The notes below the pieces were generated by a model. The model did no database searches, had not been told where the DNA came from, and saw nothing but the letters and a program-made list of their open reading frames with translations. Source: Armatimonadota bacterium (lineage in GTDB: Bacteria; Sysuimicrobiota; Sysuimicrobiia; Sysuimicrobiales; Sysuimicrobiaceae). From it: 64,000 nt of DNA. The stretch lies in assembly GCA_031460175.1 (NCBI GenBank), contig JAVKGW010000003.1:248001-312000 (forward strand). The letters run 5' to 3'. Both the position numbers and the translations under genes were made by a program. Below are positions 12,526 to 60,478 of the stretch, in pieces (position 1 is the first letter of the stretch; every line of letters begins with the position of its first letter).

Positions 12526-14499
12526 ATGGACCAGACGGGCGTGCAGACCCAGGCCACCATCCAGGCCCTGTTGCAGGAGACCCGGCGGTTTGCGCCCCCG
12601 CGGGAGTTCGCGGCCCGGGCCAACGTGAACGACCCCCGGATCTACGAGGAGGCGGCCCGGGATCCGGAGGCCTTCTGGGCCAAGTACGCGGAGCAGGAGC
12701 TGCGGTGGTTCCGGAAGTGGGACCGGGTCCTGGAGTGGAATGCGCCCTGGGCCAAGTGGTTCGTCGGGGGACAACTGAACGCCTGCGACAACTGCGTGGA
12801 CCGGCACGTGGAGACGTGGCGGCGCACCAAGGCCGCCCTGGTGTGGGAGGGAGAACCCGGGGACAGCCGGGTGCTCACCTACCAGGACCTGCACCGGGAG
12901 GTCCAGCGGTTCAGCAACGTCCTCAAGGGCCTGGGGATCCAGAAAGGGGACCGGGTCACCGTCTACCTCGGCATGGTGCCGGAGCTCCCCATCGCCATGC
13001 TGGCCTGCGCCCGCATCGGGGCTGTGCACAGCGTGGTGTTCGGCGGGTTCAGCGCGGAGGCCCTGGCGGATCGCATCCAGGACGCCCAGGCCAAGGTTCT
13101 CATCACCCAGGACGGGGCGTGGCGGCGGGGCCAGGTGGTCCCCCTCAAGCAGTACGCGGACGAGGCCCTGAAGGCCTGCCCTTCGGTGGAGAAGGTGGTG
13201 GTGCTGCGGCGGGTCGGGAACCCCGTCTCCATGACGCCCGGGCGGGACTTCTGGTGGCACGAGCTCATGGAGGCGGCCGATCCCCACTGCCCCGTGGAAG
13301 CGCTCGACAGCGAGCACCCGCTCTTCATCCTGTACACCTCCGGGACCACCGGGAAGCCCAAGGGGGTGCTGCATACAACGGGCGGGTATCTGCTCGGCGT
13401 CCACCTTACCACCAAGTGGGTGTTCGACCTCAAGGAGGAGGACTACTACTGGTGCACCGCGGACATCGGGTGGGTCACGGGCCACAGCTACATCGTGTAC
13501 GGGCCGCTCAGCAACGGGGCCACCTCCGTGATGTACGAAGGGGCCCCGGACTGGCCGGACAAGGATCGGTACTGGCGGATCGTGGAGAAGTACCGGGTGA
13601 ACATCCTGTACACCTCGCCCACCTTCATCCGCACCGCCATGAAGTGGGGGCCGGAGTACCCGAAGCGGTGCGACCTCAGAAGCCTGCGGCTGCTGGGAAC
13701 CGTAGGGGAACCCATCAATCCGGAAGCCTGGATGTGGTACCACGAGCACATCGGCGGTACCCGGTGTCCCATCGTGGACACCTGGTGGCAGACGGAAACC
13801 GGGATGATCCTGATCACTCCCCTTCCCGGCATCACCACCACCAAGCCCGGATCCGCCACCCTCCCCTTCCCGGGGATTGCTGCGGACGTGGTGGACGAAC
13901 ACGGCAATTCCCTCCCGCCCAACGTGGGCGGATACCTCGTCCTCACCCGGCCGTGGCCCGCGATGCTGCGCACCTTCTGGGGAGATCCGGACCGGTACGT
14001 CCAGGTCTACTGGAGCCGGTTCCCCGGAAAGTACTTCACGGGGGACGGGGCCCGGCGGGACGAGGAGGGGTACTACTGGATCCAGGGCCGGGTGGACGAC
14101 GTGGTGAACGTGGCCGGCCACCGGCTCAGCAACATCGAGATCGAGAGCGCCCTGGTCGCCCACCCCGCGGTGGCGGAGGCGGCCACCATCGGCCGCAGCC
14201 ACCCCGAAAAAGGGCAGGCCATCGCCGCCTTCGTGGTCCTGCGGAGCGGTTACGAGCCCAGCGATGCCTTGCGGAAGGAGCTGCGGGAATGGGTGGCCCG
14301 GAAGATCAGCCCCATCGCGCGGCCCGATGACGTCTTCTTCTGCGCGGACCTGCCGAAGACGCGCTCCGCGAAGATCATGCGGAGGCTCCTGCGGGACATC
14401 GCAGAGGGAAGGGCCCTGGGAGACACCACCACCCTCACGGATCCCAAGGTGGTGGAGGAGATCAAGCAGCGGTACATCGCGGAGGGGAGGGAGGAGTAA
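12526..14499 (+). CDS. acsA: Acetyl-CoA synthetase (AMP-forming)
   Basis: Activates acetate through acetyl-AMP to acetyl-CoA. The 657 residues carry the ANL-family P-loop [11 protein letters not shown] (about residue 270), the TWWQTETG motif near residue 420, the adenylate-binding [11 protein letters not shown] and the [14 protein letters not shown] hinge. The C-terminal catalytic lysine lies in TRSAKIMRR; most homologues have Gly where this protein has Ala before that Lys. The start ATG follows a GGGGGA site. A TAGAAT at 12483-12488 may be a -10, though I see no -35. The gene ends in a hairpin shared with recA. Confidence 0.95.
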
Positions 14500-14515
14500 G
14501 GGCCTCCTCCCTCCC
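14485..14515. terminator. Hairpin between convergent acs and recA
   Basis: A perfect 12-bp inverted repeat (GGGAGGGAGGAG at 14485-14496, its complement at 14504-14515) with a 7-base loop that includes the acs stop codon. It sits exactly between the two convergent genes, so it can stop transcription from both sides. There is no T-run on either strand, so termination efficiency is uncertain. Confidence 0.6.
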
Positions 14516-14518
14516 GGC

Positions 14519-15592
14519 CTAGCGCGTCCGAAGGGGCATGTCCTTGTGGTTCCGGCTTGGCGGCTCCGGCACCACGGGGGTCTCCGGAACCTGACTCCGG
14601 CCCCGGTTCCACCCCATCTTTTCCCGCAGCTTGGCCTCCAGCTCCGCGGCGAGCTCCGGGTTGCTCTCCAGGAACTCCCGGGCGTTGTCCCGGCCCTGGC
14701 CCAGGCGCAATTCCCCGTAGCTGTACCAGGTCCCCACCTTCTGCACCAAGCCGTGCGCGGCAGCGAGGTCCAGGAGGCTTGCGGCCTTGCTGATCCCCTT
14801 CCCGTAGAGGATCTCCACCTCGCACTCCCGGAAGGGCGGGGCCACCTTGTTCTTCACCACCTTGATCCGGGCCCGCATGCCCGTGACGTCCTCGCCGTTC
14901 TTGATGTTCTCCGTCCGGCGGATCTCCATGCGCACGGAGGCATAGAACTTCAGGGCCCGGCCGCCCGTGGTGGTCTCCGGATTGCCGAACATCACGCCGA
15001 CCTTCTCCCGGATCTGGTTGATGAACACCACCACGCACCGGGACCGGCTGATGGCGCCCACGAGCTTCCGCAACGCCTGGCTCATGAGCCGCGCCTGCAG
15101 TCCCACGAACGCGTCCCCCATCTCCCCTTCCAGCTCCGCCCTCGGCACCAAGGCGGCCACGGAATCGATCACCACCACGTCCACGGCCCCGGACCGAACC
15201 AGGGTCTCCGCGATCTCCAGGGCCTGCTCGCCGCTGTCGGGTTGAGACACCAGCAGCTCATCCACGTTCACGCCCACCGCCCGCGCGTAGTTGGGATCCA
15301 AGGCGTGCTCCGCGTCGATGAAGGCGGCCACCCCACCCTCCCGCTGGGCCTCCGCGATGATGTGGTAGGCCAGGGTGGTCTTCCCGCTCGCCTCCGGACC
15401 GTAGATCTCCACCACCCGCCCCCGGGGAACCCCACCCACCCCTAAAGCCGCATCCAGCCCGATGGCCCCTGTGGGGATCACCTCCACGGTGAGCCGCTGG
15501 TTGGCCTCCCCCAGCTTCATGATGGAGCCCTTGCCGAACTGCTTCTCGATCTGGGCCACGGCCAGGTCCAACGCCTTCTGCCGATCGTTCAT
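14519..15592 (-). CDS. recA: Recombinase A
   Basis: Strand-exchange ATPase and SOS co-protease. The 357 residues include the Walker [10 protein letters not shown], the [15 protein letters not shown] Walker B region, the L2-loop [14 protein letters not shown] and the [12 protein letters not shown] segment. The start ATG at 15592 has GGGGAGGAGGGAGG just upstream. It carries its own promoter overlapping the end of thpR, with a LexA-type palindrome in the spacer (see the 15621-15649 entry). It is the last gene of the rimP-to-recA block, as in Bacillota, where cinA-recA is also the end of the run. Confidence 0.98.
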
Positions 15593-15620
15593 GGCCTCCC
15601 TCCTCCCCGCGGCTTTCTCA

Positions 15621-15649
15621 AGGCTAGCAAACATATGTTTGCATGTCAA
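15621..15649 (-). promoter_or_regulatory. recA promoter
   Basis: On the minus strand a perfect -35 TTGACA (15644-15649) is followed by exactly 17 bases and a -10 TAGCCT (15621-15626). Transcription would begin near 15614, giving a ~20-base leader holding the Shine-Dalgarno. The -35 box shares bases with the thpR stop codon. The spacer is filled by a 16-base palindrome. Confidence 0.8.
15627..15642. promoter_or_regulatory. LexA-type SOS operator in the recA promoter spacer
   Basis: A perfect 16-base palindrome GCAAACATATGTTTGC lies between the -35 and -10 of recA. Its AACATATGTT core matches the centre of the Bacillus/actinobacterial SOS box (CGAACATATGTTCG type), with A in place of G at the flanks. 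Its position would let a bound repressor exclude RNA polymerase. No lexA gene is in the window. Confidence 0.7.
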
Positions 15650-16215
15650 CCCCCGAGCCGGACGGATTCCAGGACCACGTACGTGGGGCCCTTTGGACCG
15701 AGCCGGCTTTCCATCACCACCACCCACTCAACGCGCTGCCGGCCGATTTTCGCATCCCCTGACCGTTCCAGGGCCCTCGCGAGGTCAGGTCCTCCCGATC
15801 CCTGCCGGATGCGGCCGATGGTGAGGTGGGGCTCGAAGGGACGGACCTCCCGGGGGAAATGGACCCGGAAGAGGGCGTCCTCCACGCGCCGGGCCAAGGC
15901 CGCGAGGTCCCCGGCTCCCTCCGTGACCCCTACCCAGAGCACCCGTGGGGTCCTCAGGTTGGGGAAGGCTCCGAGACCCCCGACGGCGATCTCGAAGGGC
16001 TTTGTCTGCGCCACGGACCGCACCGCCTCTCCCACATCCGGGACCCGCTCCTGCGGGATCTCGCCCAGGAATTTCAGGGTGAAGTGGAGGTTTTGGGGCT
16101 CCACCCACTTCACCCGCGCATCCGCCTCCGGCCAGATTCGTGCGATGGCCTGCTGGAGATGGACCACCCGGGCCCGGAGCCCTTCCGCGAGGGGGACCGC
16201 CACGAAGAGGCGCAA
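15646..16215 (-). CDS. thpR: RNA 2',3'-cyclic phosphodiesterase (LigT/ThpR family)
   Basis: A 2H phosphoesterase with both catalytic His-x-Thr motifs: HFT at residues 44-46 and HLT at 130-132. The 189-residue length and the N-terminal RLFVAVPL are typical. Two starts compete: a GTG at 16221 overlapping the cinA stop (GTGA), and a TTG at 16215 that has AAGGAG five bases upstream and gives the usual family N-terminus (M)RLFVAVPL. I prefer the TTG. It lies between cinA and recA; the pairing of thpR with cinA and recA also occurs in other bacteria. Confidence 0.9.
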
Positions 16216-49440: not shown

Positions 49441-49444
<4 letters not shown>

Positions 49445-50463
49445 CGGGGGAGGCGCAGGCGGAGGAGCTTCCGGGCGTTCTCCTCGAAGATCTTCCGCTT
49501 GTCCTCCAAAGATGCCGTCATGTTCTCCACGGCCCGGATGGCCTCCCGCACGTACATGGCTCCCTCCTCGGGGCCGAAGGGCATGTCGGAGCCGAACAGC
49601 ACGTGCTCTGCTCCGAAGAACGCCACCCCGCACTCCACGCCGGGCACGTTGCCGAAGAGGGCCGTGTCCGCGTAGAACATCCGGAAGTACTCGTGGGGCG
49701 ACCGCTTGAGCCTCCGGCGGGCCTCCACGTCCTCTGCGGAGTCCGTGCGGTGGCCGATCCGGTCCAACCCTCCCCAGCCAAGCCGTCCTTCCACGTACGG
49801 AATGATCCCGCCCAGGTGGTGGGTGATGATCTTGAGGTTCGGGAGGCGGTCGAAGATCCCGGAGAAGACCATCCGGGTCATGAACACCCCGGTCTCATAG
49901 GGCCAGCCCAGGGCCCACCAGATGTCGTACTTGGAACGGTTCTCCGTGGGGTAATCCGCCTGGTCCTGCCCCCGGGTGGGGTGGACCCAGATGGGGAGGT
50001 CGTAGGCGGCCATGCGCTCAAAGAGGGGCAGGAACTCCGGTTGGTCCAGGGGCTTTCCGAGCACGTTGGTGAAGATCTGGACCCCGGTGGCGCCCAGCTC
50101 CTCTACCGCCCGCTCCGCCTCCCGCACCGCGGCCTCCACGTCGTCCAGGGGCAGGGAAGCCACGAAGCCCACGAACCGGTCTGGATAGCGGTCCACGAGC
50201 TCAGCCATGCCGTCGTTCGCGGCCCTGGCGAGCTCCACCCCCTGGGGCCCCGTGGCCACCGCCTCGATGGGCGGGGCCGCCAGGCATGGCACCTGTACGT
50301 AGGCGCCGAGGGTGTCCATGATCCGGAACCGTTTCTCGAGATCCCACAGGGTGCTCACGCCTCGGACCAGCCGTTGGAGATATCCCGATGCGGAAGCGTG
50401 TTCGACCATCCGGTCGTAGAACCCCTTCGGGTAGATGTGGCAGAAGGCGTCGATCTTGAGCAT
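49441..50463 (-). CDS. ACMSD/gamma-resorcylate-decarboxylase-type amidohydrolase
   Basis: A 340-residue amidohydrolase-2 family protein (decarboxylases and hydrolases of the ACMSD superfamily). It begins KIDAFCHIYP, where the usual HxH metal motif reads F-C-H, a change seen in a subgroup of this family. Other metal positions are kept: IWVHPTRG, the THHLGG histidines and the Asp in FGSDMPFG. Related enzymes decarboxylate or reversibly carboxylate aromatic acids; the true substrate here is unknown. It is the last gene of a unit with a NitT/TauT-type binding protein and MetF-MetV. Confidence 0.8.
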
Positions 50464-50473
50464 GGTCCTCCTC

Positions 50474-51490
50474 CTACTGCACCTTCAGGTCCCGGGCAGC
50501 CTCCCGCACGAAGCGGAAATCCACCAAGCGGTCCACGGGAAGGGGGGATGCCAGGGCGCCCTGCGCCACCATGTGCGCCTGGAGGGCCAGCAGGTGCCGC
50601 GCGTCGAACACCCCGTCCCGCCGCAGCCCCGGCCAGATCATCTCCTGGAAGAGGGCGTCCTCCCGGAGCGGGGTGTACTTCTTCAGGACCTCCACCACCT
50701 CCGCACGCGCGGCGGGATTTCGCAAAGCGTCGTTGTAGAGTTGCAGCCCCCGCAGGTACGCCCGCATCCATCGGGTCGCCACCGGCGTCCGGGCCCGCAT
50801 CTGCTCCGAGTACACCAGCACCGCGGCGGGGAAGTCCGTCACCACCGCGTCCGCGGTCAAGAGGGCGATGCCGGACCGAAGCCGCCGGGTGGAGATGGTG
50901 GCGGAGGGTTCCACCATCATGGCCGCGTCCACGGCCCCGTTGTGCACCGCCACGGGCATGTCCGGGATGGCCATGGGCACGAGCTGCACCTCCCGCAGGC
51001 TCACCCCGCCCCGGGCCAACATCCGCTCCAGGAGGAACGTCTGCACCCCCGCGAGGTTGGTGACCGCCACCCTCCGGCCCCGCAGGTCTCGTACGCTGCG
51101 CACGGTGCCCGCGTCGAACAGCTCCCGCCGGACCACCAGCACGTTGAACCCGTGGCCCTTGGCGAAGGAGCCCTTGGTGGCCACAATCCGCATCCCCGCC
51201 CCCTGCTGGATGGCGTTGATGAATCCCGGGATGATCTCGATGCCGCCCACGTCCAGCAGGCCCGTGGCGAGCGCCGGGATGATCTCCGTGGACCGCATGC
51301 GGTGGTTGAGCTGGACCTGGAGTCCCTCCTCCGCGAAGTACCCCTTCTCCAGGCCGATGAAGATCCCCGCATCGGACACCGCGCCCGGGGTGCCTGCCCG
51401 GATGGAGACCAAGGCCTGTCCAAGGGCGGAGGAGGCGGCGAAGATCGCGAGCAAACAGACCAACCCCAGAAAAAGCCCCTTTCCGGTCAT
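50474..51490 (-). CDS. NitT/TauT-type ABC substrate-binding protein
   Basis: A 338-residue secreted protein of the NMT1/SsuA-like group (type II fold). The signal peptide is residues 1-25 (GLFLGLVCLLAIFAASSALG). GIFIGLEKGYFAEEGLQVQL is the hallmark first segment, and DLRGRRVAVTNLAG and VDAAMMVEPSA follow. Ligands in this family include sulfonates, nitrate, thiamine precursors and aromatic acids. No permease or ATPase gene accompanies it. The gene lies 30 bases after metF-metV and 10 bases before the amidohydrolase. Confidence 0.85.
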   Translation of the reverse strand: MTGKGLFLGLVCLLAIFAASSALGQALVSIRAGTPGAVSDAGIFIGLEKGYFAEEGLQVQLNHRMRSTEIIPALATGLLDVGGIEIIPGFINAIQQGAGMRIVATKGSFAKGHGFNVLVVRRELFDAGTVRSVRDLRGRRVAVTNLAGVQTFLLERMLARGGVSLREVQLVPMAIPDMPVAVHNGAVDAAMMVEPSATISTRRLRSGIALLTADAVVTDFPAAVLVYSEQMRARTPVATRWMRAYLRGLQLYNDALRNPAARAEVVEVLKKYTPLREDALFQEMIWPGLRRDGVFDARHLLALQAHMVAQGALASPLPVDRLVDFRFVREAARDLKVQ

Positions 51491-51520: not shown

Positions 51521-53119
51521 CTAACCATCCTCTGGAAACGGCAAGCTCCCTCCCGGCACCGGTACCGGCCCGGGAGGCGCCGCGGCGCGTTCTCGGGCCT
51601 GCGACACCGGAGGCAGGATCCTCGCCTCCGGCCCACTCCCCTGGAAGTGCCCGATCCAGGAGCACGTCCCGCGGATCTCCTCGGGGACGGGTGGCACCCA
51701 CGTCTGCTCCCACCTCTCCATCTGGCCCGTGTGCTTCGCGAGCCGGTAGATGCGGGCGTGGATGCACTCCCGGTCTCCGAACTCGCAGGTGTTCCCGTCC
51801 GTGCCCCCGCAGGGGCCGTTCGCGAGCCCCTTCGGGCAGGTCTCCGGGCAGACGAAGAAGGTGTAGGGGAGCCGACAGAACCCGCACAGCTGGCAGCCCA
51901 CCCACGGTCCCTTGAGGGCGTGCTCCACCCGTGCCAAAACCCGTCCCGCGGCACTCTGCCGGGAAACGGGGCGGAACAGGATCGCTCCCAGCTTCGCCAC
52001 GGGGCTAGAGGGCTGGAACATCCAGTGATCCACGGCCTCCAGGATCCGGAACCCCCGCACCTCTCCGGGCGAAGCCACCACGGCCCCCGCCCCCTGGTCG
52101 AGGTAGAAAGCCCCTTCCGGTGCCAGCCGCACCGGACGTCCGTCGGGGTGGGTCATCACCTCCTGCCAGGCTTCTTGCCACGACTCCAGGTCCCGGCAGC
52201 TCGCCTCCAGGGTGGCCACCTGATCCAGGAGCTGCTCCAGGGTGCGCTCCGTATGCACCCCGCACAGGTGCGCGCCCCCGTATCCCAACAGCCGTGCGCC
52301 CACCACCTGCAGGGCAGCCCGTCGGATGGCGACCGACCTCCCTCCGTCCTCCAACTTCGCGTCCTCCTCCAGGCGCCGCAGGAAGTCCTCCGGGATCGGA
52401 ACGCCGGGAAGCTTCGCATCCCGGATCCGCAGGGCCAGGGAGGGCGTGAGCAGCCACACGCTGGCCAGGATCGGGACGCGGACGCCCCGGGAAGCCAGGA
52501 ACGCCTGGAGCTCCTGGAACTTCCGGGGGTCCCACCCGATCTGGGTGATGAGGACATCCGCTCCGGCCCGGAGCTTCTTCAGGGCCTTCACGTACTGCCC
52601 GAAGAGCTCCTCCTCCCGGTACTTGAACGGGTTCACCGCGGCGGCCAGGAACGCGGAGGGGAGCTCCTTCCGGGCGATCCAGAGGGACTGGACGGAGTCC
52701 AGGTACCGGGCAGGCCTGTCCGGAGGGGGCTCCCGCAGGGCATCTCCCGTGATGAACAGGAATGCCTCCAACCCCTCCTGTCTTGCCCGCTCCAGGTCCC
52801 GTTCCAGATCCGGGAGGGTGCGTCCCTTGCCGGCCCAGTGGACCACGGGGAGGATCCCCGTGGCCTCCGCCACCATGCGACCCACCAGGAGCGCATCGTG
52901 GTCGTGGTCCGTGCGTACCCGGTCCGAGATGGTGAGGGCTGCAATCCGCCCGTCCTGCCGGGCCCACCGTCCCATCCGGATCACGGAGTCCGCCACCTCC
53001 TCAAGGGGCTTGGAGCCGCTCAGCGGCGGGGACTCCAGGGTGAGGACGAACCTTCCCTCCTGGAGGCTCTGCAGGAGCCGGTTTTCGTACTTCGGGCGAA
53101 CGGCCTCGGGACGGTTCAT
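51521..53119 (-). CDS. MetF-MetV fusion (5,10-methylenetetrahydrofolate reductase)
   Basis: A 532-residue protein. Residues ~1-300 form the MTHFR barrel (FVLTLESPPL, DLERARQEGLEAFLFITGD, VLITQIGWDP). Residues ~330-470 are MetV-like and end in a Cys cluster running from C409 to about C452 (GCQLCGFC, CPETCPKGLANGPCGG, CEFGDREC). In acetogens MetF and MetV are separate subunits and the MetV cluster binds zinc. A Pro-rich tail follows. Reduction of methylene-THF feeds methionine synthesis or a Wood-Ljungdahl methyl branch. It has its own promoter at 53165-53194. Confidence 0.85.
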   Translation of the reverse strand: MNRPEAVRPKYENRLLQSLQEGRFVLTLESPPLSGSKPLEEVADSVIRMGRWARQDGRIAALTISDRVRTDHDHDALLVGRMVAEATGILPVVHWAGKGRTLPDLERDLERARQEGLEAFLFITGDALREPPPDRPARYLDSVQSLWIARKELPSAFLAAAVNPFKYREEELFGQYVKALKKLRAGADVLITQIGWDPRKFQELQAFLASRGVRVPILASVWLLTPSLALRIRDAKLPGVPIPEDFLRRLEEDAKLEDGGRSVAIRRAALQVVGARLLGYGGAHLCGVHTERTLEQLLDQVATLEASCRDLESWQEAWQEVMTHPDGRPVRLAPEGAFYLDQGAGAVVASPGEVRGFRILEAVDHWMFQPSSPVAKLGAILFRPVSRQSAAGRVLARVEHALKGPWVGCQLCGFCRLPYTFFVCPETCPKGLANGPCGGTDGNTCEFGDRECIHARIYRLAKHTGQMERWEQTWVPPVPEEIRGTCSWIGHFQGSGPEARILPPVSQARERAAAPPGPVPVPGGSLPFPEDG

Positions 53120-53216: not shown

Positions 53217-54164
53217 TCAATCCAGATGCTGCACCTGGTGCGGGTAGGTACGCTCCAGGATCTCCACGATCCGGGTGAGGAGGGCGTTGTAGGGCGCGGG
53301 GATGCCGTGGCGTTCCGCCCGCCGCGCGATCTCCCCGTTGAGGAACGCGATCTCCGTGGGACGGCGTCGGAGCACATCCTGGAGCATGGAAGGGAGGTGG
53401 GTGCGCTCCTGTGGGGACTGGTGGCGCCGGAGGAGCGTATCCAGGACCCTTTGCGGATCCAGGGAAACTCCCTCCGCGGCCGCCACCGCCACCGTCTCCG
53501 CCACGATCCGCTCGAAGATCTCCCGCGCGGCGGGCTGGGCCACAAGGGGCCCAACGGGGAGACGGGTGATGGCGGAGAGCGCGTTCGCGGCCGCGTTGAA
53601 AGCCACCTTGTACCAGATGGCTTCCCACGGATCGGGGAGAGCCCGCGCGGGCAGGCCCGCCTGGGTGAGCAGGGTGGCGAGCTCCTGCGCGGCGCCGAAT
53701 CGATCTGGCGCAAGAGGCCCCAACAGGATCTCCACGGGGTGCGGGGTCCACCGGATCCGTCCCGGGGCCACCAGGTCGCTCCAGAGGAAGCAAACGCCCG
53801 CCAGGATCCGGTCCGGGTTGAACACCTCCGCGAGGGCCTCCACGTTCCCCAGCCCGTTCTGGAGCGTCACCACCCACGTGTCGGGTCCCGCCATGGGCAG
53901 GGCGTTTTGGGCCGCGCTCCGGGTGTGGTTGGACTTGGTGAAGATCAGGAGGTAATCCACCTGCCCCGCGTCCGTGGGGTCCCGGGTGGCCCGGACCCGC
54001 ACGACGCGCGGGCGCATCCCGTCGTCCACCCACACCCCGTGCTGGCGGAGGGCAGCGACCTGTTCCTCCCACACGTCCACGAGCCAAACCTCGTGCCCGG
54101 CCTCCGTGAGGTGCACGCCGAAGCGGCACCCCATGGCCCCCGCCCCCACCACGCCGAACCGCAC
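53217..54164 (-). CDS. Ketopantoate reductase-like (ApbA/PanE) oxidoreductase
   Basis: A 315-residue NADP-dependent 2-keto-acid reductase of the PanE/ApbA family. The Rossmann loop GAGAMG is at residues 7-12, the FTKSNHT segment is where PanE has its KxxQ/TKA motif, then LQNGLGN, and the conserved Lys is in IWYKVAFNAAANALSAI. The family includes true PanE and many paralogues that reduce other keto acids. Placement in a catabolic-looking operon makes the latter likely. The GTG start is preceded by GAGGAGG. It lies 19 bases after the alcohol dehydrogenase. Confidence 0.85.
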   Translation of the reverse strand: MRFGVVGAGAMGCRFGVHLTEAGHEVWLVDVWEEQVAALRQHGVWVDDGMRPRVVRVRATRDPTDAGQVDYLLIFTKSNHTRSAAQNALPMAGPDTWVVTLQNGLGNVEALAEVFNPDRILAGVCFLWSDLVAPGRIRWTPHPVEILLGPLAPDRFGAAQELATLLTQAGLPARALPDPWEAIWYKVAFNAAANALSAITRLPVGPLVAQPAAREIFERIVAETVAVAAAEGVSLDPQRVLDTLLRRHQSPQERTHLPSMLQDVLRRRPTEIAFLNGEIARRAERHGIPAPYNALLTRIVEILERTYPHQVQHLD

Positions 54165-54183: not shown

Positions 54184-55227
54184 TCAGGGAATCAGGACCG
54201 CCCGGCCGTGCACCCTTCCCCGGTGCAGATCCGTGAGTGCCCGGTTCGCCTCCTCCAGGGGATAGCGTACGATCCTCGCCCGCACCGCCCCCTGCGCGGC
54301 CAAGTGCACGAGCTCCACGAGCTCCGTGTAGGTCCCCACGAGGTTGCCCACGATGGCCTTCTCCGTGGCCACGAGTTCCATGGTGGGCACCGTGAGGGGA
54401 TCCCCGTACCCCACCACGAAGTAGGTTCCCCGACGCCCGAGCAAGGACCACCCCAGCTGGGGAGCCCCCCCTTCCCCCACGAAGTCCAGGACCACCCGCG
54501 CGCCCCGTCCCTGGGTCCACTCCATCACCTGCGCGGCGCTCTCCGACTCCGCGGGGAACACCGCGTCCGCACCCATCTCCCGGGCCCAGTTCCGGGCTTC
54601 CTCCGACCGGTCCACCACCGCGACGCGGGCGCAGGACAGGGCCCGCAGCATCTGGTACGCCAGGTGCCCCAGTCCGCCGAATCCCAGGAGCACGGCCACG
54701 GTCCCCGGCTCCAGGAGCGGGATCGCCCGCTTCACCGCATGGTAGGCGGCTAAGCCCGCGTCCGCCAGAGGGGCCGCATCCTGCGGAGGGAACCCCTCCG
54801 GGAGCCGGATGCAGTTCCGCTCCTTCACGAGAAGGTACTCCGCGAACCCGCCGTCCCGATCCAGGCCCACGAAGGCGCCGTTCTCGCAGTGCATCTCCTG
54901 CCCCTGTCGGCAGGCGAAGCAGACGCCGTCCGAGACCATGGGATACACCAGGACAGGATCCCCCCTGCGCACGGAGCGGACCGCGGGTCCCACCTCCTCC
55001 ACCCATCCCGCGTTTTCGTGTCCGGGAATGTACGGGAGCTGTGCCCGCATCACCCCCCGGAACATCCCCTCCAGGACGTGCAGATCCGTCCGGCACACCC
55101 CCGCCCCGGCCACCCGGACGATCACGTCGTCCGGGGCCTGCAGCCTGGGGTCCGGAACCTCCTCCAGGACCAGAGCCGGGCTCTGGTCCTCTACGGGTCC
55201 GTACCGGTGGAGTCGGGCCGCCCTCAT
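54184..55227 (-). CDS. Zinc-dependent alcohol dehydrogenase (MDR family)
   Basis: A 347-residue medium-chain dehydrogenase. Catalytic zinc ligands are C45 (GVCRTDLH) and H70/E71 (GHENAG). The structural zinc loop reads D100-x2-C103-x2-C106-x7-C114, with Asp in place of the usual first Cys; some thermophilic archaeal ADHs have Glu there. The Rossmann motif GFGGLGHLAYQ precedes an acidic VVDRS, suggesting NAD preference. It probably oxidises an alcohol made or used by the neighbouring enzymes. The substrate is not known. Confidence 0.9.
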   Translation of the reverse strand: MRAARLHRYGPVEDQSPALVLEEVPDPRLQAPDDVIVRVAGAGVCRTDLHVLEGMFRGVMRAQLPYIPGHENAGWVEEVGPAVRSVRRGDPVLVYPMVSDGVCFACRQGQEMHCENGAFVGLDRDGGFAEYLLVKERNCIRLPEGFPPQDAAPLADAGLAAYHAVKRAIPLLEPGTVAVLLGFGGLGHLAYQMLRALSCARVAVVDRSEEARNWAREMGADAVFPAESESAAQVMEWTQGRGARVVLDFVGEGGAPQLGWSLLGRRGTYFVVGYGDPLTVPTMELVATEKAIVGNLVGTYTELVELVHLAAQGAVRARIVRYPLEEANRALTDLHRGRVHGRAVLIP

Positions 55228-55239
55228 CGCTCCGAAACC

Positions 55240-56055
55240 TTACAAGTACGCCAGCAGGTCCTGGATCCCCCTCAACACCAAGTCAGGCCGCTCTCGGGGA
55301 GGAAGCTTCTCCAGCTCTTCCTCCAACGTGACGCCGGTGAGCACCAAGACGGTCCGGGCACCGGCCTCCTTTCCCATCCGGAAATCCAGCTCCACGTCGT
55401 CCCCGACCACCACCACCTCCTCCACCGGTACCCCCAGCCGGGACGCGGCAACCCGCAGGGCGTCCCGGCTGGGCTTGCCCACGAGCCGGGCGGGTTTCTG
55501 TGTGATGTAGGTGATGGCCGCGGCGAGGGCCGCGGACAGGCCTGGGGTTCTGCCATGCTTGGTGGCGTACCAGGGAGAAAGGGAGGTCACCAGGAACGCG
55601 GCACCGTTCCAGATGGCGCGGCAGGCCGCCGCGAGCTTCTCATACGTCCAGACGGGATCCCAGCCCACCAGGACCACCCCTGCCCGTTCCCCCTCCTCCA
55701 CGCCCACGCACGGGATCCCCTTCCGCTCCAAGGGTGCCCACAGTCCCCGCTGGCCCAGCACGAGGACCGGGCGGCCCGGATACTCGCGGGCGATGATCTC
55801 CGCGGCGATGGCTCCCGGAGTGATGACCTCCTGATCCTCGACGGGGAGCTGGCTCGCCCGCAAGACCCCCGTGTACTCCTCCGGGGGCAGGGCGCTCCCG
55901 TTGGTCAGGAAGACGAACCGGCCTCCGCCGTCGCGGATCGCCTCGAGGACCGCCCGCGTCCCGGGGAGGACCTGCGGGTTGCGCCACTCCGCGGAATCCG
56001 CAACAATACAGGTCCCGTCCACGTCCAGGACGAAGCATCGGCCCCGGAGGTTCAT
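55240..56055 (-). CDS. HAD-IIA family sugar-phosphatase-like hydrolase
   Basis: A 271-residue NagD/PGP-type HAD phosphatase. Motif I DVDGT has nucleophile D11 and acid D13, FLTNGS is motif II, the Lys is in GKPSRDAL and the metal site is GDDVELD. The C2 cap between motifs II and III marks class IIA. It would release phosphate from a small phosphometabolite, which fits an operon containing an ATP-dependent phosphotransferase. The start overlaps the carboxyltransferase stop by four bases. Confidence 0.88.
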   Translation of the reverse strand: MNLRGRCFVLDVDGTCIVADSAEWRNPQVLPGTRAVLEAIRDGGGRFVFLTNGSALPPEEYTGVLRASQLPVEDQEVITPGAIAAEIIAREYPGRPVLVLGQRGLWAPLERKGIPCVGVEEGERAGVVLVGWDPVWTYEKLAAACRAIWNGAAFLVTSLSPWYATKHGRTPGLSAALAAAITYITQKPARLVGKPSRDALRVAASRLGVPVEEVVVVGDDVELDFRMGKEAGARTVLVLTGVTLEEELEKLPPRERPDLVLRGIQDLLAYL

Positions 56056-57539
56056 GCGGTCCGCGTCCGTCTCAGGGTGATCCCCAGATCCTTCCGTTCC
56101 AGCCGGACGTAGGTTACCCTCCGCTGTCCTGCGGAGAGGGCTTCCACGAGGCGCCGGAGGGTTTCCCCGGTCCCTTCCCCATCCAGGACTAGAGGAGCCG
56201 CCTTACCCCGCTGGATGGCCTGGACCTCCTCCTCCGGGAGCCCGTACCGGAGCAGGACCTCTTCGTCCGATCCCCCCCCGTAGATCCTCCGCAGCTCCGC
56301 GATGGAGAGCTCCGGCCGCTCCCGGGGGATCTCCTTGGCCCGGGGGAGGGAGAGCACCCGATCCTGCACCTCGGGATCGATGGGACCGGGCGGTTCCCCG
56401 TACTGCCCCAGGATGTACCGGATGGTCTCGTCCGCCACGAGGCGGTAGCGCTCCGGCCCGATGAGGTTCAGCAGGGCCTGGGTGGCCACGAACTGGCTGA
56501 AGGGCGTCATCATGATGGGATAGCCCAGCTCCGCCCGCACCCGGACGATCTCGTCCAGCACCGCCTCGAACTTCTCCTCCTGCCCGATCTCCCGCAAGTT
56601 CCGCTTCAGGGTGGTGACCATGCCGCCCGGAACCTGGTGCCGGTAATAGGCCAGATCGTACTCCGAGGGGCGGCCGATGGGCAGGTTCCGCCGCCGAGCC
56701 ACTTGAAAGAAGTACCGGGAGACCCGTTCCGCGGCCTCCAGGTCCACCTCCACCTCGAAGCCCAGCTCCCGCAGGTTCGCCACCGTCCGGAAGAAGTTCG
56801 GGAGACTGGTCCCCTCTGCGAGGGGAGGGATGGCGGTGTGGAAGGTGCGGACTCCCAGCTCCGCGGCTCGCACGTAGCACACGGGGGCGAGCCCCATGTT
56901 GCAGTGGGAGTGGACCTCCAGGGGGGTATCCCCGAGCGCCTCCCGGAGGGCCGGCACCAGAGTCCCGACCCGATCCGGGGTGAGGAGACCCGCGGGATCC
57001 TTGATGTACACCGCGTCCACCACGCCCCGGGCCTTCTCTCCCAGCTCCCGGACCCGGCGGGTGTAGAACTCGTCCGTGTGGACCGGGCTGATGCTGTACA
57101 CCAGGGCCACCACCACCTCCTCCGCCCCCTCCTCCCGGGCCATCCGGGCCCCCTCCACCATCTCCGCCACGTTGTTCATGGGATCCACCACCTGGATCCG
57201 GCGGATGCCGTGGCGGACCACGGTGCGCATGGCAAGCCGGATGAGCTCCCGCGGACAGGGCTCCCACCGGATGAACCGGAGGCCCGTGGTCATGAAGGTC
57301 AGGGGCGTGCGGGGCATCCGCTCCCGGGTGAGCCGGATCCGCTCGAAGGGATCCTCCCGGTGCCACCGCACGGACACGGCCATGTGGGTGCTGGTGGTGA
57401 AGTCCAGGGCCTTGAACCCCACCCGGTCCAGATCCGATGCCACGGCCAGGATCATGGGGGTGGTGATGCCCGTGGCGCTCCACAGGCTCTGGTTCCCGTC
57501 CCGGAGGGTGACGTCGATCAGCTGGATCCGCCTCTCCAT
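56052..57539 (-). CDS. Biotin-type carboxyltransferase (PYC/OadA domain), divergent, no biotin domain
   Basis: A 495-residue TIM-barrel protein related to transcarboxylase 5S, OadA and pyruvate carboxylase subunit B. The metal and carboxylysine centre is kept: D9 in the LIDVTLRDGNQ start, K180 in YIKDPAGLL, and H210/H212 in HSHCNMG. The substrate-side segment that reads LRGxN in pyruvate/oxaloacetate enzymes is replaced around residues 81-92 (TFMTTGLRFIRW). LRDGNQSLWSA replaces LRDAHQSLLAT, and no AMKM biotin motif is present. The acceptor may differ from pyruvate. It lies between the phosphotransferase beta gene and the HAD gene. Confidence 0.75.
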   Translation of the reverse strand: MERRIQLIDVTLRDGNQSLWSATGITTPMILAVASDLDRVGFKALDFTTSTHMAVSVRWHREDPFERIRLTRERMPRTPLTFMTTGLRFIRWEPCPRELIRLAMRTVVRHGIRRIQVVDPMNNVAEMVEGARMAREEGAEEVVVALVYSISPVHTDEFYTRRVRELGEKARGVVDAVYIKDPAGLLTPDRVGTLVPALREALGDTPLEVHSHCNMGLAPVCYVRAAELGVRTFHTAIPPLAEGTSLPNFFRTVANLRELGFEVEVDLEAAERVSRYFFQVARRRNLPIGRPSEYDLAYYRHQVPGGMVTTLKRNLREIGQEEKFEAVLDEIVRVRAELGYPIMMTPFSQFVATQALLNLIGPERYRLVADETIRYILGQYGEPPGPIDPEVQDRVLSLPRAKEIPRERPELSIAELRRIYGGGSDEEVLLRYGLPEEEVQAIQRGKAAPLVLDGEGTGETLRRLVEALSAGQRRVTYVRLERKDLGITLRRTRTA

Positions 57540-57554
57540 GATGAGGGGCCGGAT

Positions 57555-58634
57555 TCACCGGGACAGCGCCTTGCCCGCCAGGGTCTGCACCACGTAGCTG
57601 AGCGGGTCCTTGAAGTTGGCCGCGATGGAGCTTCTGGGACGCCGGCTCCACACGGTTTCGGGCCGGGACTGGAGCAGGTAGAGGTTGTGGGGGAAGGCCT
57701 CGTTCTCCGCCACCGCCCACTCGATGTCCAAGGGGAACCCGTAGACCTGCTCCAGGTGCCGGGCCAGCCGCGCAAGTTCCACCACCTCCTCGTCGCAAAG
57801 ACAGGGCTTCGTCTGCAGATCCTCGGGAACGGGAACCTTCACCAGCACCCCCTCGCTGCCCGTGGGCACGAACTGCGCGGTTTTGGGCGAGATCTTGCGG
57901 TGCACGATCTCCAGGGTCACCTTGTTGACGGTGAACTCGTCCGGGGTGACCTCCCCGCTCACCACCGCCACCCCGGGGCCCCAGCTCCCCTCCACCACGA
58001 TGAGGGAACGGTCCCCGGTCCGGGGGCTGAGGGTGAACAGGACCCCCGCAGCCCTGGGATGAACCATCTGCTGGACCCCCACCGCCACCCCGTCGTCCAG
58101 GGAGATCCCTTGGGTCAGCCGGTACGAGAGGGCCCGGGGGGTGAACGCGCTCGCCCAGCACCGGCGCACGGAGTCCAACACGTTCTCGGCTCCGCGCACC
58201 CACAGGTACGTCTCCTGCTGACCCGCGAAGCTGGCTTGCTCGCTGTCCTCCGCCAGGGCGCTTGAGCGCACCGCCACGGGCGGGTCCGAAACCTGGGTCC
58301 GAATGCTCAGCTCCTCGTACCCTCGCTCGATGGCCCCCTGCACCTCCCGCGGAATCCGACTTTCCAGGAACATGCCCGTGATCTGCTGGCTCGCCCGCTC
58401 GAGACTTTCCAGGTCGTTGGGCGCCACGGAGGCCAGCACCTGCCGCAGCCGATCCTCCAGGCCGTTGGCTTCCAGGAAGCGCCGGTATCCGAAGCTGGTG
58501 ACCGCGAATCCCGGCGGGACCCGGCACCCGTGCCGGAGGAGTTCTCCAAGGCTCGCCACCTTCCCACCCACGAGGGCGCGCTCCGTGAATCCCACCCGTG
58601 AGAAGTCCAGGACGAAGGGCACCTCTCCCATCAT
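57555..58634 (-). CDS. PEP-synthase-like ATP-grasp subunit (beta) of a split phosphotransferase
   Basis: A 359-residue (~40 kDa) protein equal to the N-terminal ATP-grasp half of PEP synthase. It has GGKVASLGELLRHG near the start, VRSSALAEDSEQASFAGQQET (ATP-binding core), AAGVLFTLSP and the domain-closing YLLQSRPETVWS, after which PEP synthase would continue into its phosphohistidine domain. Here the protein ends instead, and the phosphohistidine domain is in the next gene upstream. Subunit size and split match the beta subunit of phenylphosphate synthase. ATG-ATG start at 58634/58631. Confidence 0.85.
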   Translation of the reverse strand: MMGEVPFVLDFSRVGFTERALVGGKVASLGELLRHGCRVPPGFAVTSFGYRRFLEANGLEDRLRQVLASVAPNDLESLERASQQITGMFLESRIPREVQGAIERGYEELSIRTQVSDPPVAVRSSALAEDSEQASFAGQQETYLWVRGAENVLDSVRRCWASAFTPRALSYRLTQGISLDDGVAVGVQQMVHPRAAGVLFTLSPRTGDRSLIVVEGSWGPGVAVVSGEVTPDEFTVNKVTLEIVHRKISPKTAQFVPTGSEGVLVKVPVPEDLQTKPCLCDEEVVELARLARHLEQVYGFPLDIEWAVAENEAFPHNLYLLQSRPETVWSRRPRSSIAANFKDPLSYVVQTLAGKALSR

Positions 58635-58651
58635 CTCATCCGACCCCCCTT

Positions 58652-60478
58652 CTAGTCCTCCAGCAGGGTTACGGTTCCCGCATCCCCGTCCACCCGGATC
58701 CGCTGTCCGGTCCGGATGCGCTTGGTGGCGGATCCCGTCCCCAGCACCGCGGGGATCCCGTACTCCCGCGCCACGATGGCCGCGTGGGACATCATCCCGC
58801 CGATGTCGGAGACCGTGGCCCGGATCCGGGAGAAGACCGGAGCCCAGCTGGGCTCCGTGACGGAACACACCAGGATCTCTCCTTCCTGGACCTCGTGCAG
58901 CTGATCCACGCTCAGGACCACCCGCGCGGGCCCCTCCACCACCCCCGGCGAGGCCGCGAACCCTCGCAGGACCTTCTCTTCCGCCTTCTCCGGCTCCAGC
59001 CACGCCCGCAGGCGTTCGGGCGTGATGCCCCAGAGCATCACCACCGCGGGGTCCACCACGGCCTCGGGCACGGTCCCAAGAGCCGGGGGTGGGTTCCACT
59101 CCCGCAACTTCCTCATGAGCTCCCGCCGCCGGGCGATGATGGGCGGCCAGTACACGGGGCCCCGGGCCGGTGCCCCGATGGTCCAGGAGAGCAAAAGGTC
59201 CATGAGGGCCTGGTGCACCTCACTCCAGTGCAGGTAGAAGATGTCCTCCACGTCCCGGAAGAACCCCTGCCGCACGAACAGGGCCCCCAGTTCCCGCACC
59301 TTGTTCCAGAACACGCTCTGGTACCAGTGCTCCACGTAGAACTTGTGGTCCTCGATGGAGTAGTACACGTTACGGACCAGCCCCAGGAGCTGATCAAAGG
59401 CCCGCCGATCCTCCTCCGTTTGCAGCAAAGCCCGATACCCTTCCGTGATCTGATCCCGGTCCCGCCGGCGGCCCTCGATGTCCCGCTCCAGGGACTCTCC
59501 CCGCTTCACCTTCGCCACGTAGTCGCACAGGATGCCGAAGACGGCTCCCGGATCGTCCACCCACGCCCGGTGATGATGGTGGAACCCATCCCCCGTGTTC
59601 ATGTAGAACCAGGGGTCCGAGCTCCGACGCCACTCCTCTAGCCACGTCCGGCCCGCCTCGGTCTGCTCCAGAACCTGGAACACCTCCTTCACGTCCGCAC
59701 CGGGCCGGAAATGGGAATCCACCCCCAGCTCCACGGCCCGCTTGGCCAAGCGCTTCAGCTCATCGTTGGGGCGGAACATGCTCACGTCAATGGCGCCCAC
59801 CATGCGGGTGATGGCCTGGTCCGAGATCTCCGGGAACGCTTTCTTGCAGAACTCGTAAAAGGTAAAGTAGGCGGCGAACCCGATCATCACGATCTCCATG
59901 TGGATCTGCCAGATCCGGAAGATGCTCTCCAGAAGCCGGTGGTAGGCCTCGAACACCTCCTGGGAGGTGCCGTATCCCTTCCGTTCGAAGACGAGCCGCT
60001 CGTCCTCCACCTCCGGGAGCTCCGGGAACCGGATGGCCTTCAGCTGCTCGATCTCCCGCTTTACCTTCTCCCGCCACTCCTCGTAGAACTGCGGCCAGTT
60101 CTGGAAGTAGTACCCCGCCCGACGCTCGAAGAGCTTGGCCCGTTCCTCGATCTTCTTGGGATCTCCCACCGCGGTGGGGCTGATGTACAGCCGGCCGTTC
60201 AGGAACCGGAAGTCAATCCCCATGGCCGGCGGGATGGCGAACATCCGGCTGCTCATCTCCCCGATGCCGAGGTAGCCCGCCTCGAATCCGATGGTGTCAA
60301 ACGGATGCACGGCTTCGGGGGCGTGCATGCCGTTGTAGAACCAAAGCTTGTTCTCTTCCTCCTGCCTGCGGTCCTCGCTAAACAGGAGGTAGTACGGATA
60401 CATCTCCGTCCAGCCCTCGCAGCCGGGGGGTGTCTGGACCTCGAACGGGCTTTGGAACCGCAAAGCGTCCGTCATCAT
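58652..60478 (-). CDS. PEP-utilising phosphohistidine subunit (alpha) of a split phosphotransferase
   Basis: A 608-residue (~70 kDa) protein. The last ~100 residues are the swivelling phosphohistidine domain (GFAASPGVVEGPARVV; GGMMSHAAIVAREYGIPAV with the catalytic His at about 565). The N-terminal ~480 residues are not the PEP/pyruvate TIM barrel; they are helical and aromatic-rich, with an unusual GFHHHHRAW at mid-protein, and are probably the substrate domain. The chain ends ~43 residues after the His, so the C-terminal PEP-binding barrel of PEP synthase is absent. Layout matches the alpha subunit of phenylphosphate synthase. ATGATG start behind GGGGGAGGGGG. Confidence 0.8.
   Translation of the reverse strand: MMTDALRFQSPFEVQTPPGCEGWTEMYPYYLLFSEDRRQEEENKLWFYNGMHAPEAVHPFDTIGFEAGYLGIGEMSSRMFAIPPAMGIDFRFLNGRLYISPTAVGDPKKIEERAKLFERRAGYYFQNWPQFYEEWREKVKREIEQLKAIRFPELPEVEDERLVFERKGYGTSQEVFEAYHRLLESIFRIWQIHMEIVMIGFAAYFTFYEFCKKAFPEISDQAITRMVGAIDVSMFRPNDELKRLAKRAVELGVDSHFRPGADVKEVFQVLEQTEAGRTWLEEWRRSSDPWFYMNTGDGFHHHHRAWVDDPGAVFGILCDYVAKVKRGESLERDIEGRRRDRDQITEGYRALLQTEEDRRAFDQLLGLVRNVYYSIEDHKFYVEHWYQSVFWNKVRELGALFVRQGFFRDVEDIFYLHWSEVHQALMDLLLSWTIGAPARGPVYWPPIIARRRELMRKLREWNPPPALGTVPEAVVDPAVVMLWGITPERLRAWLEPEKAEEKVLRGFAASPGVVEGPARVVLSVDQLHEVQEGEILVCSVTEPSWAPVFSRIRATVSDIGGMMSHAAIVAREYGIPAVLGTGSATKRIRTGQRIRVDGDAGTVTLLED

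Follow-up and report, generated by a model that had tools for sequence, protein, structure and literature searches.

A carboxyltransferase with an altered acceptor motif, encoded between a dikinase and a phosphatase in an Armatimonadota genome, and its probable unlinked biotin partner

We analysed a 64,000-nucleotide stretch of the genome of an Armatimonadota bacterium (assembly GCA_031460175.1, contig JAVKGW010000003.1, positions 248,001 to 312,000; hereafter the window, C3:248001-312000). Its minus strand carries a gene (56052..57539) encoding a 495-aa carboxyltransferase (CT) subunit. The gene lies between those of a two-part dikinase and of a NagD-type phosphatase, the segment of the protein that binds pyruvate or oxaloacetate in related enzymes is replaced, and biotin carboxylase (BC) and biotin carboxyl carrier protein (BCCP) genes are missing from the cluster. 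With somewhat better than even confidence, we read the protein as a subunit of a biotin-dependent carboxylase of phospho-aryl ketones of the Hpe/Acv/Xcc kind, which would receive carboxybiotin from an unlinked BCCP-BC pair on contig C11. Within this recently described enzyme kind, we read the unlinked biotin subunits and the inferred shared hub as the new elements.

The frame of the CT gene had been proposed by an earlier model reading of the letters without database searches (the sequence-only reading); it is open over 495 aa, with the strand now set to minus. Comparison with the ortholog of a sister genome, G001 (93% identity), by the Nei-Gojobori method gave a ratio of nonsynonymous to synonymous substitution rates (dN/dS) of 0.13. 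A chance open reading frame (ORF) at this position was ruled out because of this value, which indicates a real gene under purifying selection. Pfam searches of the protein (P0001) detected HMGL-like and PYC_OADA only, and the lack of a biotinyl motif claimed in the sequence-only reading was thereby borne out. The top NCBIfam matches were models of pyruvate carboxylase subunit B (PycB) and oxaloacetate decarboxylase alpha (OadA), every one under its curated cut-off (PRK09282, 323 bits vs. 402; oadA, 294.6 vs. 756.5). The AlphaFold model was of middling quality (mean pLDDT 75.7, 12 sequences); it matched 2nx9, 5ks8, and 1rqh with Z scores of 36.9–37.3 and root-mean-square deviations of 3.0–3.4 over 420–438 residues. 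The assignment as a CT subunit thus draws on the open frame, Pfam, alignment, tree, and structure match.

According to an alignment of 103 rows, the catalytic centre of the window CT consists of R13, D14, Q17, K180, H210, H212, and T345. The D-K-H-H metal/carboxylysine centre of PycB, OadA, and transcarboxylase 5S is intact by both alignment and structure match. Three of the residues named in the sequence-only reading (K180, H210, H212) hold their places; D9 was replaced as metal ligand by D14 of R13-D14. The D14 column is that of the invariant D of LRD, and in the structural alignment to 1rqh, where model residue 1 corresponds to chain residue 10, D14 would fall on residue 23 if the stretch is gap-free. 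The motif changes described in the same reading were recovered in the alignment: LRDAHQS is LRDGNQS in this protein, and the LRGxN segment is replaced by TTGLRFIRW. Compared with PycB, OadA, and 5S, the Arg of LRG is T85, the Tyr of GY is W92, and the M of KDM is P182. In the numbering of Rhizobium etli pyruvate carboxylase (RePC), we take the compared residues to be R548, R621, and Y628.

Relatives were collected by scanning genome contigs with the three CTs of this genome and their G001 orthologs, from which the best 80 of 104 relatives gave 79 loci, and by a plasmid search of 147 records, in which seven CT regions were examined. A single-sequence scan of genome contigs gave 29 pattern matches and no relative, a scan of viral contigs gave 36 pattern matches and no relative, and PADLOC returned no match. 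The tree was built from 103 rows longer than 380 aa, namely 99 of the 100 detected CT ORFs, the window protein, and three canonical sequences; it is a quick tree with SH-aLRT support only. The window CT and its G001 ortholog fall within a clade of 21 rows (support 99); identity of the window CT to members of the clade outside the genus is 46–51%. Among 43 genomes of the same order, only the genome under study (G000) and G001 hold these CTs, the remaining matches being at E 7e-8 or weaker.

All 21 rows of the clade carry an invariant signature, which in the window CT comprises R13-D14-G15-N16-Q17, T85-G86-L87-R88, W92, and P182. Across the rows, it reads RDGNQ, T at the position of the LRG Arg, G-[LMF]-R, W at the Tyr position, and P after K-D. 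PycB homologues with the same substitutions were not found among the three canonical PycB rows (signature in 0/3, LRGQN kept in all three). The LRG Arg is retained in the remainder group (33/33) and lost in the sister clade (46/46). Because the substitutions are fixed across the clade and the status of the LRG Arg splits by group, they indicate not decay but a CT kind with another acceptor. If this is correct, phospho-aryl-ketone CTs should be recognisable by the motif RDGNQ / TGxRF / W among the many proteins that carry the annotation 'pyruvate carboxylase subunit B'. The Thr of the carboxybiotin site (T345 in the window CT) is kept in 21/21 members. The equivalent Thr882 of RePC is catalytically essential (PMC5895798), and its full retention therefore argues for continued use of carboxybiotin.

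In the 19 clade loci outside this genus, BCCP adjoins CT in every case and BC is found in nine; a NagD-type HAD phosphatase is present in all 19 and in the sister genome. The BCCP, BC, and CT profiles came from five plasmid clusters and the HAD profile from three, the CT and HAD profiles including window proteins as well. Kinase genes of the phenylphosphate-synthase type, sought with Rhizobium sequences alone, occur in the loci of 17 of the 20 other clade rows; the rest are L135 and L136, with the order BCCP-BC-CT-HAD, and L068, a 3.3-kb contig. In a plasmid cluster of Rhizobium leguminosarum the order is kinase alpha-kinase beta-BCCP-BC-CT-HAD, and the identities to the window proteins are 48% (kinase alpha), 43% (kinase beta), 48% (CT), and 36% (HAD). 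Ten hpe-like clusters from acidobacterial and gammaproteobacterial metagenome-assembled genomes (L057-L062, L067-L069, L117) have a BCCP and no BC nearby.

In the window, nine same-direction genes separated by short gaps follow the order kinase alpha, kinase beta, CT, HAD-IIA phosphatase, zinc alcohol dehydrogenase (ADH), ApbA-type reductase, methylenetetrahydrofolate reductase (MTHFR), solute-binding protein, and amidohydrolase; all nine are conserved in G001. Kinase alpha (P0004; 58652..60475, minus, 607 aa) is HpeH/PpsA-like and has a swivel domain with the phospho-His motif GGMMSHAAIVAR, described for HpeH and phosphoenolpyruvate synthase (PMC12167813). Kinase beta (57555..58643, minus, 362 aa) is an HpeI/PpsB-like ATP-grasp protein with a PPDK_N domain. 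The HAD-IIA (NagD-type) phosphatase (55240..56055, minus, 271 aa) is HpeD-like, and there is a 4-base overlap between its gene and that of the CT. Neither the kinase pair upstream nor the phosphatase downstream of the CT figured in the sequence-only reading. The different acceptor suggested there gains support since the signature marks a clade whose CTs are associated with phenol kinases and NagD-type phosphatases, as in the Hpe/Acv layout.

The known system is that of Rhodococcus rhodochrous GD02. HpeHI phosphorylates hydroxyphenylethanones, the biotin-dependent HpeCBA carboxylates 4-phospho-acetovanillone and 4-phospho-acetophenone and not free phenols, and HpeD, whose closest verified homologue is NagD, removes the phosphate (PMC9618137). 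Hpe is homologous to AcvABCDEF of Sphingobium SYK-6 and XccBCA of Aromatoleum EbN1 (PMC9618137). A plasmid of Rhodococcus sp. JS3073 carries a cluster of the same order with predicted masses of 70.5/39.6/17.6/49.5/57.5 kDa, the published GD02 masses being 71.2/40.6/17.4/49.3/57.4 kDa (PMC9618137). Start codons in JS3073 were ranked by how near they brought the predictions to the published values, a procedure biased towards agreement, and the mass match is suggestive only. The JS3073 CT reads RDGNQ...TTGMRFMSW, which is the clade signature. Table 1 of PMC9618137 lists hpeB as the carboxyltransferase and hpeA as the biotin carboxylase, with 57.4 kDa for HpeA and 49.3 kDa for HpeB in its text; these masses fit the reverse assignment in JS3073 (BC 49.5, CT 57.5).

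By comparison with these systems, the pathway in the window may be as follows. The dikinase (58652-60475 and 57555-58643) would phosphorylate a hydroxyphenyl ketone (acetovanillone, acetosyringone, or 4-hydroxyacetophenone type) at its phenolic OH. The CT would then carboxylate the phospho-aryl ketone at its methyl carbon with carboxybiotin as donor, the carboxylysine/metal centre serving enolisation, T345 acting at the biotin site, and the rebuilt pocket (T85, R88, W92, P182) taking the place of the pyruvate-binding Arg of LRGxN. The NagD-type phosphatase (55240-56055) would take off the phosphate. The cluster may have lost its BC and BCCP genes or never had them, and carboxybiotin would come from the unlinked pair on C11 (14086-16065), a hub common to two other CTs of the genome. 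If so, the route for lignin-type aromatic ketones extends to another lineage, and its biotin subunits can be unlinked.

Absence of the biotin parts from the window, already noted in the sequence-only reading, was verified in two ways: hmmsearch of all window ORFs of at least 40 aa gave no BC or BCCP match, and all genome-wide PF00364 and PF02785 matches lie outside the window. Both genes are also missing from the CT cluster of G001. The search of the genome for an unlinked BCCP, which that reading had proposed, was productive. The genome has 11 Biotin_lipoyl matches and three BCs. The C2 BC adjoins accD/accA-like genes and the C3 BC stands in an acyl-CoA carboxylase-type locus (both roles judged by eye from translations). 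The third is on C11, where a BCCP gene is followed by the BC gene (P0003), the pair spanning 14086-16065 with no CT beside it. Outside the genus, the five closest matches of the C11 BC (L101, L102, L103, L126, L133), all of them BCs beside sister-clade CTs, share 62–69% identity with it, and the fatty-acid-type C2 BC of its own genome shares 57%. The same leaning is found for the C11 BCCP. Among 21 related genomes, a C11-type pair (a BC of at least 60% identity and a BCCP ortholog) occurs only in G000 and G001 (BC 90%, BCCP 79% identity), the two that hold these CTs; the next best BC has 58%. The genome encodes two further sister-clade CTs without local BC or BCCP, L046:9084-10574 on C4 and L047:9429-10901 on C1, which by alignment have lost the LRG Arg and have pockets that differ from that of the window CT. 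These patterns of kinship and occurrence suggest that the C11 pair is probably the carboxybiotin source of the window CT and is shared with the two sister CTs. One of the sister CTs has two ABC-transporter ATPase genes as neighbours (judged by eye), the other a citrate-synthase gene.

Several points weigh against the phospho-aryl-ketone assignment and its C11 partner. The link to the biochemically proven Hpe/Acv/Xcc CTs runs through synteny, masses, and identity. Co-occurrence of the C11 pair with the CT comes from one genus and counts as one event. At a genome completeness of 98.89%, a second BCCP/BC may have been missed. In the clade, BCCP normally is adjacent to CT, and borrowing of a sister-clade BCCP was not seen elsewhere in the set. 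Acyl-CoA steps of the HpeE/HpeF type, including an HpeE-like ligase, were not seen in the cluster. Kinase alpha shares 70% identity with a Thermomicrobium roseum plasmid protein, far more than with hpe-type alpha subunits (48%), and that plasmid has no such CT. Because of this affinity, the kinase may have a different substrate, and the genes of the cluster may have been newly brought together. Support for the branch that joins kinase alpha to the hpe-type kinases is only 84/83, and the relationship is not resolved in the kinase-beta tree. On the T. roseum plasmid (L200:12001-14932), the kinase pair, 70%/49% identical to the window alpha/beta, stands beside accC. A PDB search with kinase beta returned no entry named HpeI, for which a crystal structure has been reported (PMC12167813).

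These kinase data bear on a first alternative, in which the CT is of the same biotin-dependent kind and the phosphorylated acceptor is another phenolic or a non-aromatic alcohol. It would agree with the affinity of kinase alpha for a protein outside any CT cluster and with the five genes downstream of the phosphatase, which among the examined loci are kept only in the sister genome, bar weak ADH and amidohydrolase matches. We nevertheless hold it unlikely: the pocket signature is invariant in the clade, including loci with the full hpe-like order, and an expansion of LigM/DesA-family proteins fits lignin-type aromatics. Seven such proteins are encoded in this 2.5-Mb genome (contigs C1, C2, C4, C6, C7, and C12; L193-L199) and six in G001, compared to 0–2 in the other 19 relatives; among four of the seven that were searched against NCBIfam, one passes the LigM cut-off. 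LigM and DesA yield 5-methyl-tetrahydrofolate, and in SYK-6 ligM and metF share an operon (PMC6888825). The MTHFR gene of the cluster together with this expansion fits a methoxy-aromatic diet and an acetovanillone- or acetosyringone-like substrate, and a role of MTHFR in recycling methyl groups from methoxy-aromatics would fit as well. Hydroxyphenyl ketones are, in our judgement, a fairly likely substrate class.

A second alternative keeps the acceptor and changes the source of carboxybiotin to the fatty-acid AccB/AccC on C2, the C11 pair serving other enzymes. In its favour, 10 of the 19 loci have a BCCP and no BC in the cluster and must borrow one, and in 11 hand-chosen genomes the best-scoring BC was only 50–55% identical to that of C11. 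The C11 pair, however, has no adjoining CT and shows kinship to the BCs and BCCPs next to sister-clade CTs, and relatives that lack these CTs also lack the pair, which makes this source improbable.

The sequence-only reading had also allowed that the enzyme works without biotin. A biotin-free decarboxylase or aldolase/lyase-like protein would account for the lack of a biotin domain in the protein and of BC and BCCP in the cluster. Biotin independence is unsupported because the carboxybiotin-site Thr is kept in 21/21 rows. In addition, BCCP is adjacent in 19/19 other clade loci and a separate BCCP is normal for the clade, HpeCBA is biotin-dependent, and the genome has a biotin-type hub in the unlinked C11 pair; we consider this alternative quite improbable. 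An ordinary PycB or OadA, as suggested by the fold and the top NCBIfam matches, is scarcely credible and was rejected, for the scores are under every curated cut-off, LRGxN is lost (T85 for the Arg of LRG), and canonical PycB falls outside the clade.

Comparison with known systems separates the shared from the particular. Like the window, Hpe, Acv, and Xcc combine a two-part dikinase, a 5S/PycB-fold CT, and a NagD-type phosphatase in one gene run; unlike them, the window cluster has no BCCP or BC, no acyl-CoA synthetase was found there, and its kinase alpha groups with the T. roseum protein. PycB, OadA, and 5S share the fold, metal centre, and biotin-site Thr of the window CT and differ in the motifs, TGLR standing for LRGxN, GNQ for AHQ, W92 for the Tyr of GY, and P182 for the M of KDM, and in the lack of a biotin domain in the window protein. 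The kinase pair of phenylphosphate synthase (PpsAB-PpcABCD) is homologous to that of the window, and window kinase alpha is 43% identical to a protein beside ppcBDAG in Azoarcus KH32C. The carboxylating enzyme of that system, unlike the window CT, is not a biotin CT, and it is stated not to be homologous to HpeCBA (PMC9618137).

A census of 14 hand-chosen genomes of sister-clade loci, many of them metagenome-assembled, was made with CT and C11 BC as queries. The number of CT matches (E <= 1e-30) per genome was 1–16, including 9 in G073 (L102), 10 each in G076 (L106) and G077 (L075), and 16 in G079 (L115); these counts take in partial genes and some CTs with their own BC (e.g., two in G072), and ordinary pyruvate carboxylases may be among them. 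Exactly one BC with at least 60% identity to the C11 BC was found in 11 of the 14 genomes (partial in G079, with an internal stop in G081) and none in G075, G078, and G082. From these numbers we tentatively propose, at a little under even confidence, a hub-and-spoke arrangement in which one BCCP-BC pair feeds many 5S/PycB-fold CTs of separate clades with diverse acceptor pockets. On this view, the window cluster would be an Hpe-type pathway whose own biotin subunits were given up in favour of the hub. Such a hub would let CO2-fixing capacity widen by the addition of CT genes alone. In actinobacterial acyl-CoA carboxylases, one alpha subunit is common to several AccD subunits, so that several CTs depend on the same biotin parts, as in the proposed hub. 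The CTs there have the AccD crotonase fold, vs. the 5S/PycB fold here. A literature search on this CT family turned up no shared biotin hub, which is not proof of absence.

A possible contact between the CT and its partner lies in a helix-hairpin at the C-terminus of the CT (about residues 458–490; 56070..56168, minus), a putative docking element found by profile match to BCCP N-termini. The last ~35 residues of the CT family matched the N-terminal segment of partner BCCPs in hhalign with a probability of 84 and a score of 21.8, compared to 11.7 for the best of 60 column shuffles and 11.3 for the reversed control. The segment is predicted, with low confidence, to form a helix and two strands. 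It may dock BCCP or the hub, a lead from a short segment.

The genes downstream of the phosphatase are all on the minus strand. The zinc alcohol dehydrogenase (54184..55227; 12-base gap to the phosphatase gene) and the ApbA/PanE-type reductase (53217..54164) are followed by MTHFR with a C-terminal DUF5981 (methylene-tetrahydrofolate reductase C-terminal) domain (51521..53119), an NMT1-type solute-binding protein (50474..51490), and an amidohydrolase of the Amidohydro_2 family (49441..50463).

The clade CTs L135:8992-10476 and L136:8992-10470 come from plasmids of Sphingomonas bisphenolicum and of the bisphenol A degrader Pseudomonas putida YC-AE1. For the latter strain, complete removal of p-hydroxyacetophenone within 24 h is stated ('data not shown'), and the enzyme named by the authors is a 4-hydroxyacetophenone hydrolase rather than a carboxylase (PMC9733184). 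The removal gives weak support to reading the plasmid CT as a ketone carboxylase subunit. Both CTs are annotated as 'biotin carboxyl carrier protein', and the BCCP profile matches a separate gene.

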